A stretch of 35,191 bases of DNA from Candidatus Woesearchaeota archaeon (GTDB lineage: Archaea > Nanobdellota > Nanobdellia > SCGC-AAA011-G17 > JACQNH01), in the NCBI GenBank assembly GCA_023246445.1, contig JAHFIJ010000008.1:1-35191 (forward strand), in the 5' to 3' direction. Under the pieces are notes generated by a model. The model was not told the DNA's origin. It did not search any database and saw nothing but the letters and a program-made list of their open reading frames with translations. Shown here one piece after another: positions 8,694 through 33,267 of this stretch (within the stretch, counting starts at the first letter, position 1; each line of letters starts with the position of its first letter). A program made the translations under genes and the position numbers.

Positions 8694-10439
8694 TTAATTG
8701 TGCATATACCGGAACATATAAATATTGTTTTTAATAGAATCTAACTTGCAGAAGCCAAACCTCTGAAACTGTATAATTGTATTTAATTTTAAATCCTTTA
8801 TTCCTTCTTCTGCCAAACCATTCTTTAAACTTCCATCTGGCATTAAAACTTCAACCCTGATTAAATCTTTACTTTCAGGCAGCCAGTGTATTAATTTTAT
8901 TTTATCATCCTTCTTATGCTCCAAAGAAGTAAATTTCAAATTTTTAAAATTAAAAGCACCTATTAGCCTGTATTCTTTATTCTTTTCCAGCTTATCCTGT
9001 ATGTATACCTTATCTTTAGTTTTAAATAATCTAAACCTATCCTTTTTACTGGGATGACATGGTAATCTAACCTCTAATTTAGGCGTGTTTTTAATACATA
9101 TTAATTTAGGTTCTTCAACAAAGAAATACCTATCAGTTTTAAAATCAATCAATTCTTTATTAAAATGGAACAATAGCTCTAAAAAATCCTTGGATCTTAA
9201 TTTTTTATCTACAGGATTAGGCCCCATCTCATGAACTAATCTAACAAAAGCCTCTTGTTTGATACCTCTTCTTTTAAGAGCCTCTACTGTTGGCAGTTTT
9301 ATATCATCCCAGCCGCTAAATTTCCCCTCTTTTATTCCTTGTTTTATTAATGAAGTTTTTAATTTTAAATCCGTGAATTGTATCTTTCCATAATGCACAT
9401 ATTGTGGAACTGGTAAATTAAAATGCTTGTAAATCCATTTCTGCCTCTCTGTATTTACTATATGATCTTTTCCTTTTATAACATAATTAATTCCGGATTC
9501 ATAATCATCTATAGCAACGGCAAAATTCATTAAAGGCCATACTCTATATTCTTTTCCCCTTCTTGGATGTTCTGTATCTAAAATTCTAAAAGCAGGCCAT
9601 TCTCTCAAGGCAGGGTTCTTATCATTTAAATCAGTTTTAATTCTTAGCACATAATTCTCAGCATCTTTAAACATTTTCATCCATCTTCTCATGTTATCTT
9701 CAATTTTTAAATTTCTACAGGGGCATGGTTTTGATTTATCCACCAAAGCCTTAAATTCTGCTTGAGAACAATTGCAAACATAAGCCTTTCCTAATTTTAT
9801 CAGCTGATCAGCTTTTTCATAATATAACTGCATATTATCCGATTGAATCTGAACCTCTGGATCTGAATTTGTCAACCATTTTACTTCCTCTACAATCATG
9901 TTATAGGCTTCTGGCAGAATATTTTCCGGATTCGTATCTTCAATCCTTAAAATAAATTTGCCTTTATATTTTTTAGCATATTCTGAGTTCAGCAATAATC
10001 CAATTGTATGTCCTATATGCAATGGTCCTGATGGTGAAGGAGCTAATCTAAAAACAGGCTTCTTAGGAACATTTTTTAATTCAGTTAATCCTTTCTTAAT
10101 ATGTGGCTTTTCTTTCTTAAATTCCTTAGGATATATTTTCTTTAATAATTCTTCCTGTTGTTTTAAGCTTAATTTATTTATTTTTTTAACCTCTTCTTTA
10201 ATGTCTTTTTTTAACTCTTGGATTTTAGATTTTAATTCTGGATTTTGGCTTAATATCATTCCTAATACAGAGCCTTCATTAGCCTTCCCGCCATATCTTA
10301 CAGCATTTATTATTGTTAATTCTTTTATTTTATCTCTCATGTTCTTTCCGAGGTTTCTTCTTAAGAAAGCTCTTTCATAAAGCTTTAAATAAAGATTGTT
10401 TTTAAAGGTTATTATGAATCTCTTAAGAAAATCAGGCAA
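8694..10439 (-). CDS. gltX: Glutamyl-tRNA synthetase (archaeal type); true start possibly internal near 10340 (MRDKIKELTI)
   Basis: HIGH motif APSPSGPLHIGHTIG, FILRIEDTNP, archaeal GluRS C-terminal region. The long N-terminal extension overlaps the divergent ORF, favouring the internal start. Confidence 0.95.
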   Translation of the reverse strand: MPDFLKRFIITFKNNLYLKLYERAFLRRNLGKNMRDKIKELTIINAVRYGGKANEGSVLGMILSQNPELKSKIQELKKDIKEEVKKINKLSLKQQEELLKKIYPKEFKKEKPHIKKGLTELKNVPKKPVFRLAPSPSGPLHIGHTIGLLLNSEYAKKYKGKFILRIEDTNPENILPEAYNMIVEEVKWLTNSDPEVQIQSDNMQLYYEKADQLIKLGKAYVCNCSQAEFKALVDKSKPCPCRNLKIEDNMRRWMKMFKDAENYVLRIKTDLNDKNPALREWPAFRILDTEHPRRGKEYRVWPLMNFAVAIDDYESGINYVIKGKDHIVNTERQKWIYKHFNLPVPQYVHYGKIQFTDLKLKTSLIKQGIKEGKFSGWDDIKLPTVEALKRRGIKQEAFVRLVHEMGPNPVDKKLRSKDFLELLFHFNKELIDFKTDRYFFVEEPKLICIKNTPKLEVRLPCHPSKKDRFRLFKTKDKVYIQDKLEKNKEYRLIGAFNFKNLKFTSLEHKKDDKIKLIHWLPESKDLIRVEVLMPDGSLKNGLAEEGIKDLKLNTIIQFQRFGFCKLDSIKNNIYMFRYMHN

Positions 10440-21698: not shown

Positions 21699-24083
21699 CT
21701 ATTCTGAATGCATTCTAGCCGCATCCAGCATTAATTTTCTCTCAGCTCTGGATACTATTAATCTTATCTTCTGAACAGCATCTATATTAGCAGAAATAGA
21801 ATCTATCCCTGTTTTAACCAGAAATTCAGCCATTAAAGGATTAGACCCTGCCTGCCCACAGATAGAAGTCTCAACATTATATTTCTTGCAAACCTTAATA
21901 ACATAACTAATGCATCTTAAAACAGCTGGATTTAATTCATTATATAAATTCTGCAGATTCTCATTATTCCTGTCAACAGCCAATACAGTTTGGGTTAAAT
22001 CATTGGTGCCAAAAGAAATAAAAGATATCCCCTCCTTGCAAATATCCTCAATCATCCAGACAGCAGCAGGAGTTTCAACCATGACACCCAATGGAACCTT
22101 TGAAGCATTTATCTCATTTAAAATTTCTTTAGTTTTTCTAATTTCTTCAGGCGAAATAACAAATGGCAGCATTACAGATATATTAGTTAAACCCTCGTCA
22201 TATAACTCTTTTATAGCCTTTAATTCAGCCTTTAAAATCCCTATATCTTTTAATGATCTCCTTATTCCATGAAAACCCAGCATAGGATTAAATTCTTTAG
22301 GCTCTTCCTCACCACCATCTAGATCTCTGTATTCATCGGTTCTTATATCTGAAGTTCTAACCCAAACAGGTCTAGGATTAAATCTTTTAGCTATATCCCT
22401 TATACCTTGTTTAATTAAAACAGTATATTCTTCATCTCTATTTTCCTTAATATATTTAATAGGATGCGTTCTTCCCTCAGCTATTATAAACTCTAATCTT
22501 AATAAGCCTACACCATCAGGATTTTGTTTTAAAGCATTTTCTACACTTTCAGGCATATCACAATTAACCTTGATCTTAGTTATAGTCTCTAATTGTGGTA
22601 AAGGTTCATAATTTTCTTCTATAATCTTTTCTTTTATTTCCTGTTCACCTTCATAAACTAAGCCTTTAACTCCGTCTACAGTAATTAATTGATTTTCTTG
22701 TAATATTTTAGTTGCAGTTTGAGTTCCAATTACGCAGGCAATTCCCAATTCTCTTGATACAATTGCAGCATGGGAAGTAATCCCCCCTTCATCAGTAACA
22801 ATTGCAGAAGCTCTTCTCATCGCAGGAACAAAGTCTGGATTTGTCATTTTCGTTACTAAAACATCACCCTTCAGAACCTTATCCAAATCATTCACATCTT
22901 CAACGATCTTCACTTTACCAGAACCAACATGTGGAGAAGCAGCTAAACCTTTTAATAAAATTTTTTTATCTGAAATATTTCCCTCTTTATCCTGTATTTG
23001 TTTCAAAGTTGTAATAGCTCTTGTCTGCACAATGTAAATCTTGGAATTCTCAGTCGCAAATTCTATATCCTGCGGATTTCCATAATGCTCTTCTAATCTT
23101 TTTCCAATCTCAGCTAATTTAATAATATCATAATCACTTAATTTCTGTTTTTTAGCCTCATCTTCAGTTAAATTTTTCTTGGCATTTTGATTAGTATTCA
23201 AGTCTAATATTAATTTAAATTCCTGCTGATTTATGGTTTTATTTTTAATTGTTAAACTCTCTTTATCAATAATATACATATCAGGAGTTACTTCCCCGGA
23301 TACTACAGTTTCTCCCAGCCCAAAAGCAGCTTCAATTACAATTTCCTCTTTATTATTAGTTGATGGATTAGCAGTAAACATTACTCCTGAAGCAACAGAC
23401 TGAATTTGTTTCTGGACTATAACTGCAATAAAAACTTTTTCATGTGGGAAATTATTTTTAACTCTATAATAAGTAGCTCTCGCAGTAAACAAGGAAGCCC
23501 AGCATTCTTTAACCGCTTTTAATAAATTTTTATTTCCTTTAACATTTAAATATGTAGCCTGTTCCCCTGCAAATGACGCTGTCGGTAGATCTTCTGCCGT
23601 AGCACTAGATCTTACAGCTACATAAGGAGCATCTCTTCCGGTCTTTATAATATCCAATGCGCCCTTTGAGATATTCCAAATATCAGAATTAACATTCATA
23701 GCATCATAAGACTCTAAAATCTCTATTTTCAGATTTTCAGGCATTTCAGAATTCAAAATTAAATTTCTGCAGTTCTCCGCTTTTTTCTGCAGTTCCTGAT
23801 TATTCTCCACATCTAGATTATTCAATTCTTCATATATCTTTTCTTTAATATTATTAGCCTCTAAAAACTCTCTATAAACCCTGGTTGTTATAGCAAACGC
23901 AGGGGGTATAGGCAGGTCTAAAGAATACATTTCCCCTAAGTTAGCGCCCTTGCCACCCACTTCAGGAATGTTTTCCTTCTTAATGTCCCTCAGCCAAAGA
24001 ATATTATCTATTTTGATCACCTCTTTAAAAGAAAAAACTAAAATTGTATATAAATCTTTTGGAATCCTTTTGATTGAAGTCAA
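21699..24083 (-). CDS. ppsA: Phosphoenolpyruvate synthase; true start probably ~24018 (VIKIDNILWLRD...)
   Basis: VGGKGANLGEMYSLDLPIPPAFAITT, SSATAEDLPTASFAGEQ, swivelling-domain GGITSHAAIVSRELGIACVIGT, and C-terminal SICGQAGSNPLMAEFLV. Confidence 0.95.
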   Translation of the reverse strand: MTSIKRIPKDLYTILVFSFKEVIKIDNILWLRDIKKENIPEVGGKGANLGEMYSLDLPIPPAFAITTRVYREFLEANNIKEKIYEELNNLDVENNQELQKKAENCRNLILNSEMPENLKIEILESYDAMNVNSDIWNISKGALDIIKTGRDAPYVAVRSSATAEDLPTASFAGEQATYLNVKGNKNLLKAVKECWASLFTARATYYRVKNNFPHEKVFIAVIVQKQIQSVASGVMFTANPSTNNKEEIVIEAAFGLGETVVSGEVTPDMYIIDKESLTIKNKTINQQEFKLILDLNTNQNAKKNLTEDEAKKQKLSDYDIIKLAEIGKRLEEHYGNPQDIEFATENSKIYIVQTRAITTLKQIQDKEGNISDKKILLKGLAASPHVGSGKVKIVEDVNDLDKVLKGDVLVTKMTNPDFVPAMRRASAIVTDEGGITSHAAIVSRELGIACVIGTQTATKILQENQLITVDGVKGLVYEGEQEIKEKIIEENYEPLPQLETITKIKVNCDMPESVENALKQNPDGVGLLRLEFIIAEGRTHPIKYIKENRDEEYTVLIKQGIRDIAKRFNPRPVWVRTSDIRTDEYRDLDGGEEEPKEFNPMLGFHGIRRSLKDIGILKAELKAIKELYDEGLTNISVMLPFVISPEEIRKTKEILNEINASKVPLGVMVETPAAVWMIEDICKEGISFISFGTNDLTQTVLAVDRNNENLQNLYNELNPAVLRCISYVIKVCKKYNVETSICGQAGSNPLMAEFLVKTGIDSISANIDAVQKIRLIVSRAERKLMLDAARMHSE

Positions 24084-25237
24084 TTAATTACCAATGAATT
24101 GGTAATCTTGTAGTTACCCTGTGGCACTACTATTGGTTGATTGACTTGCAACCTACTAATTTCAGATTTACCGAGATTAGCGATGTTTCTTGAAGCATTT
24201 AAATCTGAATGTAATTCAAATCCACAATTTACACATTTAAAAATACTTCCTTTTCTATTTGCTTTTTCTATATGATTACATTTAGAACACATTTGACTTG
24301 TATGTTTAGGATTTACTTTTACAAGTATTTTTCCCAATGCTTCTAATTTGTAATCTAAGAATGTTTCAAATTGTTTATAGCTCCAACCACCTAATTTTTT
24401 ATTAAATCTTTTTCCATTCTTCTTTTTAGTCTTAATGTTTAATGCTTCAATTGAAAATACTTTAAAATCACTATTAGCAATTGCTTTGCTTAAACAATGA
24501 TTCGTATCAGAAACAAACCGTGTTTCTTTTCTGCTTATTTTTTGAAGTTTTCTAATAGCAGACTTAGTGCCTTTATTCTGCAATACTTTTTTTAAGTATT
24601 GATATTTTCCTTTCACATCTTTAAGATGATTTGAATGAAAGAATTGATTATTGGACATAACAACAATATTATTAATACCTCTGTCTATTCCAATTATATC
24701 CTCAACTTTTATACCCCCGAGATTTATTTTTGGTGGATTATCCTTTTCTAAAACAACATTAAGATATAACTGATTATTTCTAAAACAAAGTGTTCCTGCA
24801 ATAGCAGAGCAGTCTTTATATCTTATTGTCATAGGATTATCTATGAATGTTAATTTCTTTCTTCCTACAATAGAAGATATTGAAATTTTGTTATGTAGCA
24901 TATCAACTCTTAAATTTCTTTTGTCTAATCTCATTGAAGAATATTCTTTGCCATTGATTTTCTTTTTAAGTTTAGTTCTCTTTAAAATTTCAGAAGCAAC
25001 ATCTCTTGCAGTCTGTAATATTCCAGTAGGCATATTAGGATATTGTTTTTTTAACTTTTTATAAGTCCATTTGTGCAACTTATTTTTGTTGAAAGAGCTT
25101 TTCTTTAATCCCAAATCACATATCTGCTGTTTTATTTTAGAATATTCTTTGATAGTATTAACTAAATCATTATTATTCTCTAACTTGATTTTTACTGTTC
25201 TATTCATAATTATGCTAATATGGATAAGTTTATACAC
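24080..25237 (-). CDS. tnpB: IS200/IS605-family TnpB (RuvC-like RNA-guided nuclease)
   Basis: GIDRGINNIVV, FSIEALNIK, CSKCNHIEKANRKGSIFKCVNCGFELHSDLNASRNIANLG. The RuvC D/E/D residues and zinc ribbon appear intact. Confidence 0.93.
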   Translation of the reverse strand: MYKLIHISIIMNRTVKIKLENNNDLVNTIKEYSKIKQQICDLGLKKSSFNKNKLHKWTYKKLKKQYPNMPTGILQTARDVASEILKRTKLKKKINGKEYSSMRLDKRNLRVDMLHNKISISSIVGRKKLTFIDNPMTIRYKDCSAIAGTLCFRNNQLYLNVVLEKDNPPKINLGGIKVEDIIGIDRGINNIVVMSNNQFFHSNHLKDVKGKYQYLKKVLQNKGTKSAIRKLQKISRKETRFVSDTNHCLSKAIANSDFKVFSIEALNIKTKKKNGKRFNKKLGGWSYKQFETFLDYKLEALGKILVKVNPKHTSQMCSKCNHIEKANRKGSIFKCVNCGFELHSDLNASRNIANLGKSEISRLQVNQPIVVPQGNYKITNSLVIN

Positions 25238-26012: not shown

Positions 26013-26342
26013 ATGGAAACCCCTACTATCGTATGCTCACAGTGTAAAACAAAAGTCCCAACAAATAGTGTTAAGGCAAATAGAACAGGGACAGATTGGA
26101 TATGTCTGGAATGTTATAATAAAGAGCATAAGGCAAAATTAGAAGTCCAAAAACCCAAATGGATAGGAATTAAAGAAGAACAATTAGAAGACAAAAAAGA
26201 AAGAAACTATTATTGCACAAAATGCACATACGCTTTTACTAAAAACGGACTTTTCTATGGTAAATGCCCTTATTGTGGCAGGGAAAATTCTGTAAAAATG
26301 GAAAATAAAGGCGCAGACTGGATCGAAGATTTTATGGAGTGA
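26013..26342 (+). CDS. Small protein with two zinc-ribbon-like motifs
   Basis: CSQCKTK...CLECYN and YYCTKCTYAF...CPYCGRE. Convergent with tRNA-Ser. Confidence 0.75.
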   Translation: METPTIVCSQCKTKVPTNSVKANRTGTDWICLECYNKEHKAKLEVQKPKWIGIKEEQLEDKKERNYYCTKCTYAFTKNGLFYGKCPYCGRENSVKMENKGADWIEDFME

Positions 26343-26344
26343 AG

Positions 26345-26533
26345 CGCCGAGGGCAGGACTTTCAACGTTCTTTCTTTTTACGATGTTTTTCTTTCCTAAA
26401 GAAAAAACTCTTTTGAACCTGCACGTCCTTTCGGACACAAGCTACCGGGTATTTCCCTTAATTCCTTTTCTTAAGTGTTTTTCCAAGAAAAGCTATTCCA
26501 GGCTTGCGCTATACCAGGTTAAGCGACCTCGGC
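26345..26533 (-). tRNA. tRNA-Ser(GGA) with two predicted introns (26359..26411 in T-loop; 26444..26495 in anticodon loop)
   Basis: Acceptor GCCGAGG/CCTCGGC, anticodon arm CAAGC-CTGGAA|intron|A-GCTTG, variable arm GTCC-GAAA-GGAC, T-arm GCAGG-TTCAAA|intron|T-CCTGC, discriminator G. Mature length is 84 nt. Confidence 0.94.
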
Positions 26534-28174: not shown

Positions 28175-28313
28175 TGCGGGTGTAAGGACTTTCAGTTGTT
28201 TTCTTTCAATCTTTTTTTACGAGGTTTTTTTAAAGAAAACTCTTTTGAACCTTAGTAGGCACTAAGCCACTAGCACCTCAAGCTAGTTCATTTGGCCGCT
28301 CTGACACACCCGC
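28175..28313 (-). tRNA. tRNA-Leu(GAG) with predicted T-loop intron (28189..28243)
   Basis: Acceptor GCGGGTG/CACCCGC, anticodon arm CTAGC-TTGAGGT-GCTAG, variable arm GGC-TTAGT-GCC, T-arm TAAGG-TTCAAA|55-nt intron|T-CCTTA, discriminator A. Mature length is 84 nt. Confidence 0.95.
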
Positions 28314-33133: not shown

Positions 33134-33267
33134 GGGCTCGTAGCTCAGCCTGGAACCATTTCAGGTGGGAAATAGAGCACTGCTCTTGCAAAGCGGGGGC
33201 CTCGGGTTCGAAAGAAACTTTTCTTAAATTTTTCAAGAAAAGAAACCGAATAATCCCGACGAGTCCA
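33134..33267 (+). tRNA. tRNA-Ala(TGC) with two predicted introns (33155..33171 in D-loop; 33213..33253 in T-loop)
   Basis: Acceptor GGGCTCG/CGAGTCC, anticodon arm CTGCT-CTTGCAA-AGCGG, T-arm TCGGG-TTCGAA|41-nt intron|T-CCCGA, D-arm GCTC-AGCCTGGA|17 nt|ATA-GAGC. Located in the 16S-23S spacer. Mature length is 76 nt. Confidence 0.93.

Follow-up and report, generated by a model that had tools for sequence, protein, structure and literature searches.

In the Thermoproteales (Pyrobaculum), tRNAs with several introns, introns at position 59/60 and the transposition of introns have been described (Sugahara 2008 and Fujishima 2010, as cited in PMC8450103 and PMC4090602). The origin of new tRNA introns in archaea is an open question; according to PMC4090602, transposition in Thermoproteales was inferred and its mechanism is unknown. 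The tRNA genes analysed here resemble those of Thermoproteales in carrying at least two introns per tRNA, at canonical and non-canonical sites that include 59/60, and in sharing near-identical introns across tRNAs. They differ in their host, a member of the Woesearchaeota (DPANN) and not of the Crenarchaeota, and in the dominance of the T-loop site. Moreover, the core of these introns is found also in protein-gene, intergenic and 23S rRNA sites, unlike in the accounts of Thermoproteales given in PMC8450103 and PMC4090602. The open-access literature, which was the scope of our search, did not report a burst of T-loop introns for Woesearchaeota, and what it held on bulge-helix-bulge (BHB) motifs together with DPANN was unrelated. 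The lineage, the scale, the prevalence of T-loop introns and the hairpin dispersed outside tRNAs appear to be new.

Structure of the tRNA-Ser(GGA) Gene

The window, that is, the whole 35,191-nucleotide stretch of DNA analysed, is contig C44 of an archaeal assembly (G000) of 883 kb in 46 contigs, 90.8% complete. The tRNA-Ser(GGA) gene runs from 26533 to 26345 on the minus strand; the original prediction had placed it correctly at 26345-26533 and had left the strand out. Its 5' exon (26496-26533, tRNA positions 1-37) has CTGGAA at its 3' end and is followed by intron 1 (26444-26495, 52 nt) at the canonical site 37/38, whose excision yields the loop CTGGAAA on the stem CAAGC/GCTTG. The middle exon (26412-26443, positions 38-59), which holds the long variable arm GTCC-GAAA-GGAC, is separated by intron 2 (26359-26411, 53 nt), at the T-loop site 59/60, from the 3' exon (26345-26358, positions 60-73), all on the minus strand. 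The two insertion sites and their lengths are as first proposed, with exact boundaries and a canonical tRNA restored by excision; the variable arm is whole, and the exons of 38, 32 and 14 nt add up to the expected mature length of 84 nt. Once both introns had been removed, ARAGORN called the 84-mer as tRNA-Ser(gga) with a full cloverleaf, which agrees with the identity originally assigned and with the exon limits given above, while removal of the anticodon intron alone from the locus gave no call. A TATA-like CTTATAAAAG lies ~30 nt upstream of the gene.

The suspicion that standard annotation would overlook this gene was borne out for the two tools shown, ARAGORN and Rfam. ARAGORN did not call the unspliced locus, whether introns were disallowed or allowed, and Rfam gave no tRNA match to it at the gathering threshold or at E<=10; the families matched at E<=10 were due to chance, and neither a group I intron nor any RNA known to reside in introns had a meaningful match. 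tRNAscan-SE 2.0 includes archaeal intron models (PMC8450103). Spurious ORFs had also been noticed over the gene, and one of 84 aa indeed covers part of it (26184-26438, minus strand). The ~38 tRNA genes of the genome were collected by Rfam RF00005, a T-arm pattern and the T-loop-intron model; the check proposed earlier, for a second or intronless tRNA-Ser(GGA), found none among them in this 90.8%-complete assembly. The two-intron architecture is real and not a product of chance, since its boundaries are exact, 15 tRNA genes in the genome are built alike, position 57 covaries with its partner, and the fold of the locus has a z-score of -4.3. In these genomes, a tRNA finder in which introns of this kind are not modelled will overlook many of the tRNA genes, with consequences for estimates of completeness and for studies of codon usage in DPANN archaea.

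Splice Motifs and Splicing Machinery

Inspection of intron 2 revealed a BHB of the form TTCA-AA↓A ... TGAA-AG↓T (arrows, intron boundaries), in which the T-stem GCAGG/CCTGC is followed by a 4-bp central helix TTCA/TGAA flanked by the 3-nt bulges AA↓A and AG↓T; next to the motif lies the inner helix GAGTTTTTTCTTT/AAAGAAAGAACGT. This is the succession of 3-nt bulge, 4-bp helix and 3-nt bulge that characterizes archaeal BHB tRNA introns. Intron 1 begins one nucleotide 3' of the anticodon, as canonical 37/38 introns do, and has a relaxed motif only, with no strict hBHBh': CTGG at positions 32-35 can pair with CCGG at the intron 3' end, and the 3' bulge is then 2 nt long with no helix directly stacked. 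Pairing in the central helix of T-loop introns was analysed by a scan of the collected loci that required only TTC/GAA, the T-stem and an acceptor stem and left the partner of position 57 free. The free nucleotide tracked position 57, with A57 opposite T in 34 cases and C in 1, G57 opposite C in 9 and T in 3, and other combinations in 12. The G57-C/A57-T covariation has a Fisher p = 1.5e-6, calculated on cases that are uncorrected for relatedness and include a few false positives.

The genome has a single EndA gene, of the alpha type. The best solved relative of its product is the alpha subunit of Nanoarchaeum equitans (PDB 3iey_A), whose splicing system is also similar in its broad use of BHB motifs; unlike in N. 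equitans, a beta partner was not detected by PF01974 in G000, nor in nearly all genomes of the order, which is weak evidence since beta subunits are divergent. Among named genomes, the nearest relative is the EndA of Candidatus Woesearchaeota isolate NC_groundwater_1250, with 79% identity. Broad-specificity EndA enzymes, which are (alpha-beta)2 or epsilon2, cut relaxed motifs and are marked by an arginine plus a tryptophan (PMC6379350). The alignment places a tryptophan near the C-terminus where the M. jannaschii alpha subunit has a tyrosine; this would be the residue meant in PMC6379350, and the arginine-tryptophan pair and the N. equitans match together suggest that the EndA of G000 is of the broad type. 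Genes for RtcB and archease (the latter named by eye) are present and adjacent, and an apparent break that would have split rtcB turned out to be a 10-N assembly gap.

We consider it likely, with good confidence, that the locus encodes a functional tRNA-Ser(GGA), predicted to be cut by EndA at two sites and joined by RtcB with archease, and that it contains a member of an intron family fitted to the T-loop and associated with a dispersed hairpin. The precursor would be cut by EndA at both intron sites and the exons joined by RtcB with the help of archease. The T-loop intron would leave through a BHB in which the conserved TTCR of the T-loop pairs with YGAA near the intron 3' end, so that an intron fitted to one T-loop would suit nearly all of them. 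The near constancy of TTCRA among tRNAs would explain why T-loop introns occur in 15 tRNA genes and why some are near-identical; likewise, the T-loop site would dominate because its invariant letters let one intron pair with nearly all T-loops. We infer that splicing takes place in vivo and that the introns have spread by copying. The relaxed motif of intron 1 weighs against this reading, as does the single alpha-type EndA with no beta partner detected by PF01974, the known broad-specificity enzymes being (alpha-beta)2 or epsilon2.

T-Loop Introns in the Genome and Its Relatives

The 15 tRNA genes of G000 with T-loop introns are those of Ser(GGA), Ser(TGA), Leu(GAG), a second Leu, Ala(TGC), Ala(GGC), Arg(CCT), Arg(GCG), Arg(TCG), Glu(TTC), Gln(TTG), Thr(TGT), Ile(GAT), Val(GAC) and Lys(TTT), the anticodons having been assigned by ARAGORN on spliced forms where possible and otherwise by eye. 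Besides tRNA-Ser(GGA), the window includes tRNA-Leu(GAG) (28175-28313, minus strand), with a 55-nt T-loop intron (28189-28243); it matches R1, a covariance model of T-arm plus intron, with E = 6.6e-14, and its spliced form is called tRNA-Leu(gag) by ARAGORN. The tRNA-Ala(TGC) of the window (33134-33267, plus strand; R1 E = 6.3e-7), located between 16S and 23S rRNA, is interrupted in the D-loop by an intron of 19 nt (33154-33172) and in the T-loop by one of 41 nt (33213-33253). With both inserts out ARAGORN called tRNA-Ala(tgc), while excision of the T-loop insert alone led to a wrong anticodon. The T-loop intron of Ser(GGA) agrees with that of Arg(CCT) (L005) at 52 of 53 positions, and that of Ala(GGC) is almost identical to that of Arg(TCG); near-identical introns in separate tRNA genes, a feature of the Thermoproteales type of intron transposition, are present in this genome as well. 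An identical tRNA-Leu(TAG) gene occurs at two contig ends (L014 on C6, L015 on C30), probably as an assembly overlap.

R1 matches at E<=0.001 were obtained in 30 of the 103 genomes of the order. Ser(GGA) genes from other genera of the order, L062 (G079) and L063 (G063), have introns at both positions, so the two-intron architecture is not unique to the window. Comparison with G001, a genome of the same genus, uncovered differences at orthologous sites. The tRNA-Gln(CTG) gene is intronless in G000 (L011) and holds a 40-nt T-loop intron in G001 (L095), with boundaries exactly at 59/60 and no target duplication; this is the one clean instance in which closely related genomes differ by the gain or loss of an intron at the corresponding site. 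In Val(GAC), Ile(GAT) and Ser(TGA), the same site is occupied by different T-loop introns in G000 and G001.

A Dispersed Hairpin Element

Most T-loop introns of G000 contain a hairpin of ~37 nt, and partial R1 matches pointed to copies of this intron core outside tRNA genes. The core was modelled (R2) with the hairpin GAG-TTTTCTT/AAGAAAA-CTC, whose pairs covary; an alternative pairing, CTTTTC/GAAAAG, had no covariation support. Both introns of tRNA-Ser(GGA) harbour a copy on the minus strand. That of intron 1 (26462-26497), the first 2 nt of which fall within the exon, was matched by R1, which was not trained on it, with E = 9.5e-4 in the window and 0.025 over the genome, and by R2, to whose training set it belonged, with E = 5.4e-7; that of intron 2 (26372-26412) has an R2 E = 1.2e-5 in the window. 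At E<=0.05, R2 gave 31 hits in G000, 29 in G001, 59 in G072 and 33 in G079, whereas four other genomes of the order yielded 0-2, the training set having included part of the G000 and G001 copies and left out G072 and G079. Hits at E<=0.001 were distributed over 23 of 103 genomes of the order, and those at E<=1e-4 over 35 of 378 genomes of the class. Many dispersed copies per genome, with hardly any in other members of the order, constitute the pattern of repeats of the REP/MITE/RPE type. More than half of the copies in G000 (16 of 31) are in tRNA genes, which occupy well under 1% of the genome, and the 15 non-tRNA copies match the intron core along the whole 37 nt, covarying arm included.

Other arrangements were observed in the introns. 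The 5' arm of T-loop introns can pair either with the purine tract beside it or with another copy of that tract near the 3' end, and in 28 of 41 scanned introns, a few of which are false positives of the scan, it can pair with both beyond shuffles. Alternative 5'-arm pairings recur in intron families from other genera that are unrelated in sequence, which looks like conservation of a two-state fold. The T-loop intron of tRNA-Ser(TGA) in G001 (L293, C24:2186-2270) contains two element copies in inverted orientation. A tRNA-Pro(TGG) gene of G000 (L024/L036, C26 ~21950-22085) seems to have an acceptor-stem intron at 3/4 (GGG↓19 nt↓GTTG against CAACCCC), and also has a 37/38 intron bearing the hairpin element; introns at 3/4 are described as an extreme case in Thermoproteales.

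In the window, the copy outside tRNA genes lies directly upstream of, or at, the gltX start (10340-10374, minus strand), with an R1 E = 0.036 (model not trained on it) and an R2 E = 4e-6 (in the training set). In the 23S rRNA of G079 (L301), the element forms a 42-nt insertion in which two 3-nt bulges accompany a 4-bp central helix, GCTC/GAGT, as in archaeal 23S rRNA BHB introns, from which it differs in being very short and in sharing the hairpin core of the tRNA introns; the 23S rRNA of G000 is uninterrupted at this position. The same G079 gene also holds a group I intron (RF00028, 77 bits; L301 1869-2157, minus strand).

Coding regions are interrupted by copies in L302, L312 and L326, and in-frame copies within ORFs occur, L312 among them. 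The clean case of a coding copy with an uninterrupted counterpart is the geranylgeranyl-reductase-like protein L312 (named by eye), which when aligned with its G072 homologue L324 (39% identical) shows a 13-residue gap exactly at the element; the presenilin-like L302 is too divergent from PDB 4hyc to show a clean gap. The possibility that protein-gene copies are spliced as BHB introns was discarded for L221, L229, L227, L228, L245 and L312, whose flanks, inspected by eye, lack complementary 4-mers in register. Since these 4-mers are missing and several ORFs remain open across the element, these copies are probably translated. The gltX copy could by eye be read as a BHB intron (TATG/CATG), with the spliced start MKDKIKEL. 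The hairpin can be compared with Rickettsia palindromic elements, which are small palindromic repeats situated in frame inside protein genes and elsewhere. The woesearchaeal hairpin is likewise palindromic and in frame within protein genes as well as elsewhere; however, it is ~37 nt long and archaeal, has no known sequence relationship to them, and is predicted to be removable as an intron in tRNA and rRNA genes.

Further copies begin at the stop codon of an upstream ORF or finish just ahead of the following start codon, and some are arrayed in tandem (L115, L281). The array L281/L134 (G000 C27:6580-6716) comprises three to four 48-nt tandem copies antisense to an ORF, in which they give rise to a peptide repeat close to the beginning of what is putatively a membrane protein. 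Among copies that overlap heuristically called ORFs, ~33 run in the sense direction and 3 in the antisense direction (p = 2e-7, two-sided binomial test). This bias fits a route at the RNA level, or it could alternatively reflect selection on mRNA composition.

Origin of the Introns and the Hairpin

The copy number, the patchy distribution, one clean gain or loss in a tRNA and one gap in a protein are the grounds on which we infer that the hairpin element is mobile. Tentatively, it might be a woesearchaeal mobile element of small size that enters mRNA, rRNA and tRNA genes in sense orientation, is excised through BHB motifs in structural RNAs, and spreads as excised RNA by reverse splicing into the TTCRA of a T-loop and copying back into DNA. 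If this is true, a small transposable element doubles as a source of new tRNA introns. The copies tolerated in structural RNAs would be those that EndA can excise. The route by which the introns spread may have been recombination between one T-arm and another, or else reverse splicing of the RNA after its excision. Some T-loop introns of relatives (L079, L081) are devoid of the hairpin, so the element is not the maker of all of them.

These element-free introns fit an alternative that we regard as a serious one, though still short of probable, namely that ordinary T-loop introns spread by recombination or gene conversion between T-arms and that the hairpins outside tRNA genes either escaped from them or are unrelated AT-rich sequences. 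Introns that are nearly identical also have short stretches of identical sequence at their flanks (GGTTCAAA ... TCC), and large-scale intron transposition is on record for Thermoproteales (PMC4090602, citing Fujishima 2010). Against it, the outside copies in G000 correspond to the whole 37-nt core with its covarying arm, number 15 and occur also in tandem (L115, L281); their near absence from other genomes of the order means that base composition does not account for them. A further, rather unlikely reading takes the hairpin as a conserved regulatory RNA signal of mRNAs (e.g. for protein binding or translation restart) that is tolerated in tRNA introns and does not move. It would account for the strong sense orientation (~33 against 3), for the many copies at stop codons or just ahead of the next start and for the two alternative pairings of the 5' arm, but it is at odds with the insertions within coding regions (L302, L312, L326), the tandem arrays, the patchy spread over distant families and the gain or loss in tRNA-Gln. 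Finally, that tRNA-Ser(GGA) is a dead pseudogene broken by two insertions is very improbable: a replacement gene could sit in a gap of the 90.8%-complete genome, but none was found among the ~38 tRNA genes, all stems are intact, the excision boundaries are exact, the splice helix covaries, the same two sites carry introns in other genera, and the same fate would have to be assumed for 14 further tRNA genes in this genome.

The Woesearchaeota add a second, distant lineage with the same intron burst as Thermoproteales, and one with donor-like copies outside tRNA genes. As such copies coexist with intronless and intron-bearing orthologues in one genus, the direction and mechanism of intron spread are testable.

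Two observations lie beside the tRNA genes. Orthologous element copies in G000 (L282, C28:13983) and G001 (L287, C9:14667) are embedded in a conserved non-coding stretch upstream of a gene; the stretch has no Rfam match and may be an undescribed RNA gene with an intron. In the window, an ORF at 24080-25237 on the minus strand resembles, as judged by eye, a TnpB/IS605 OrfB protein with its C-terminal CxxC zinc finger.
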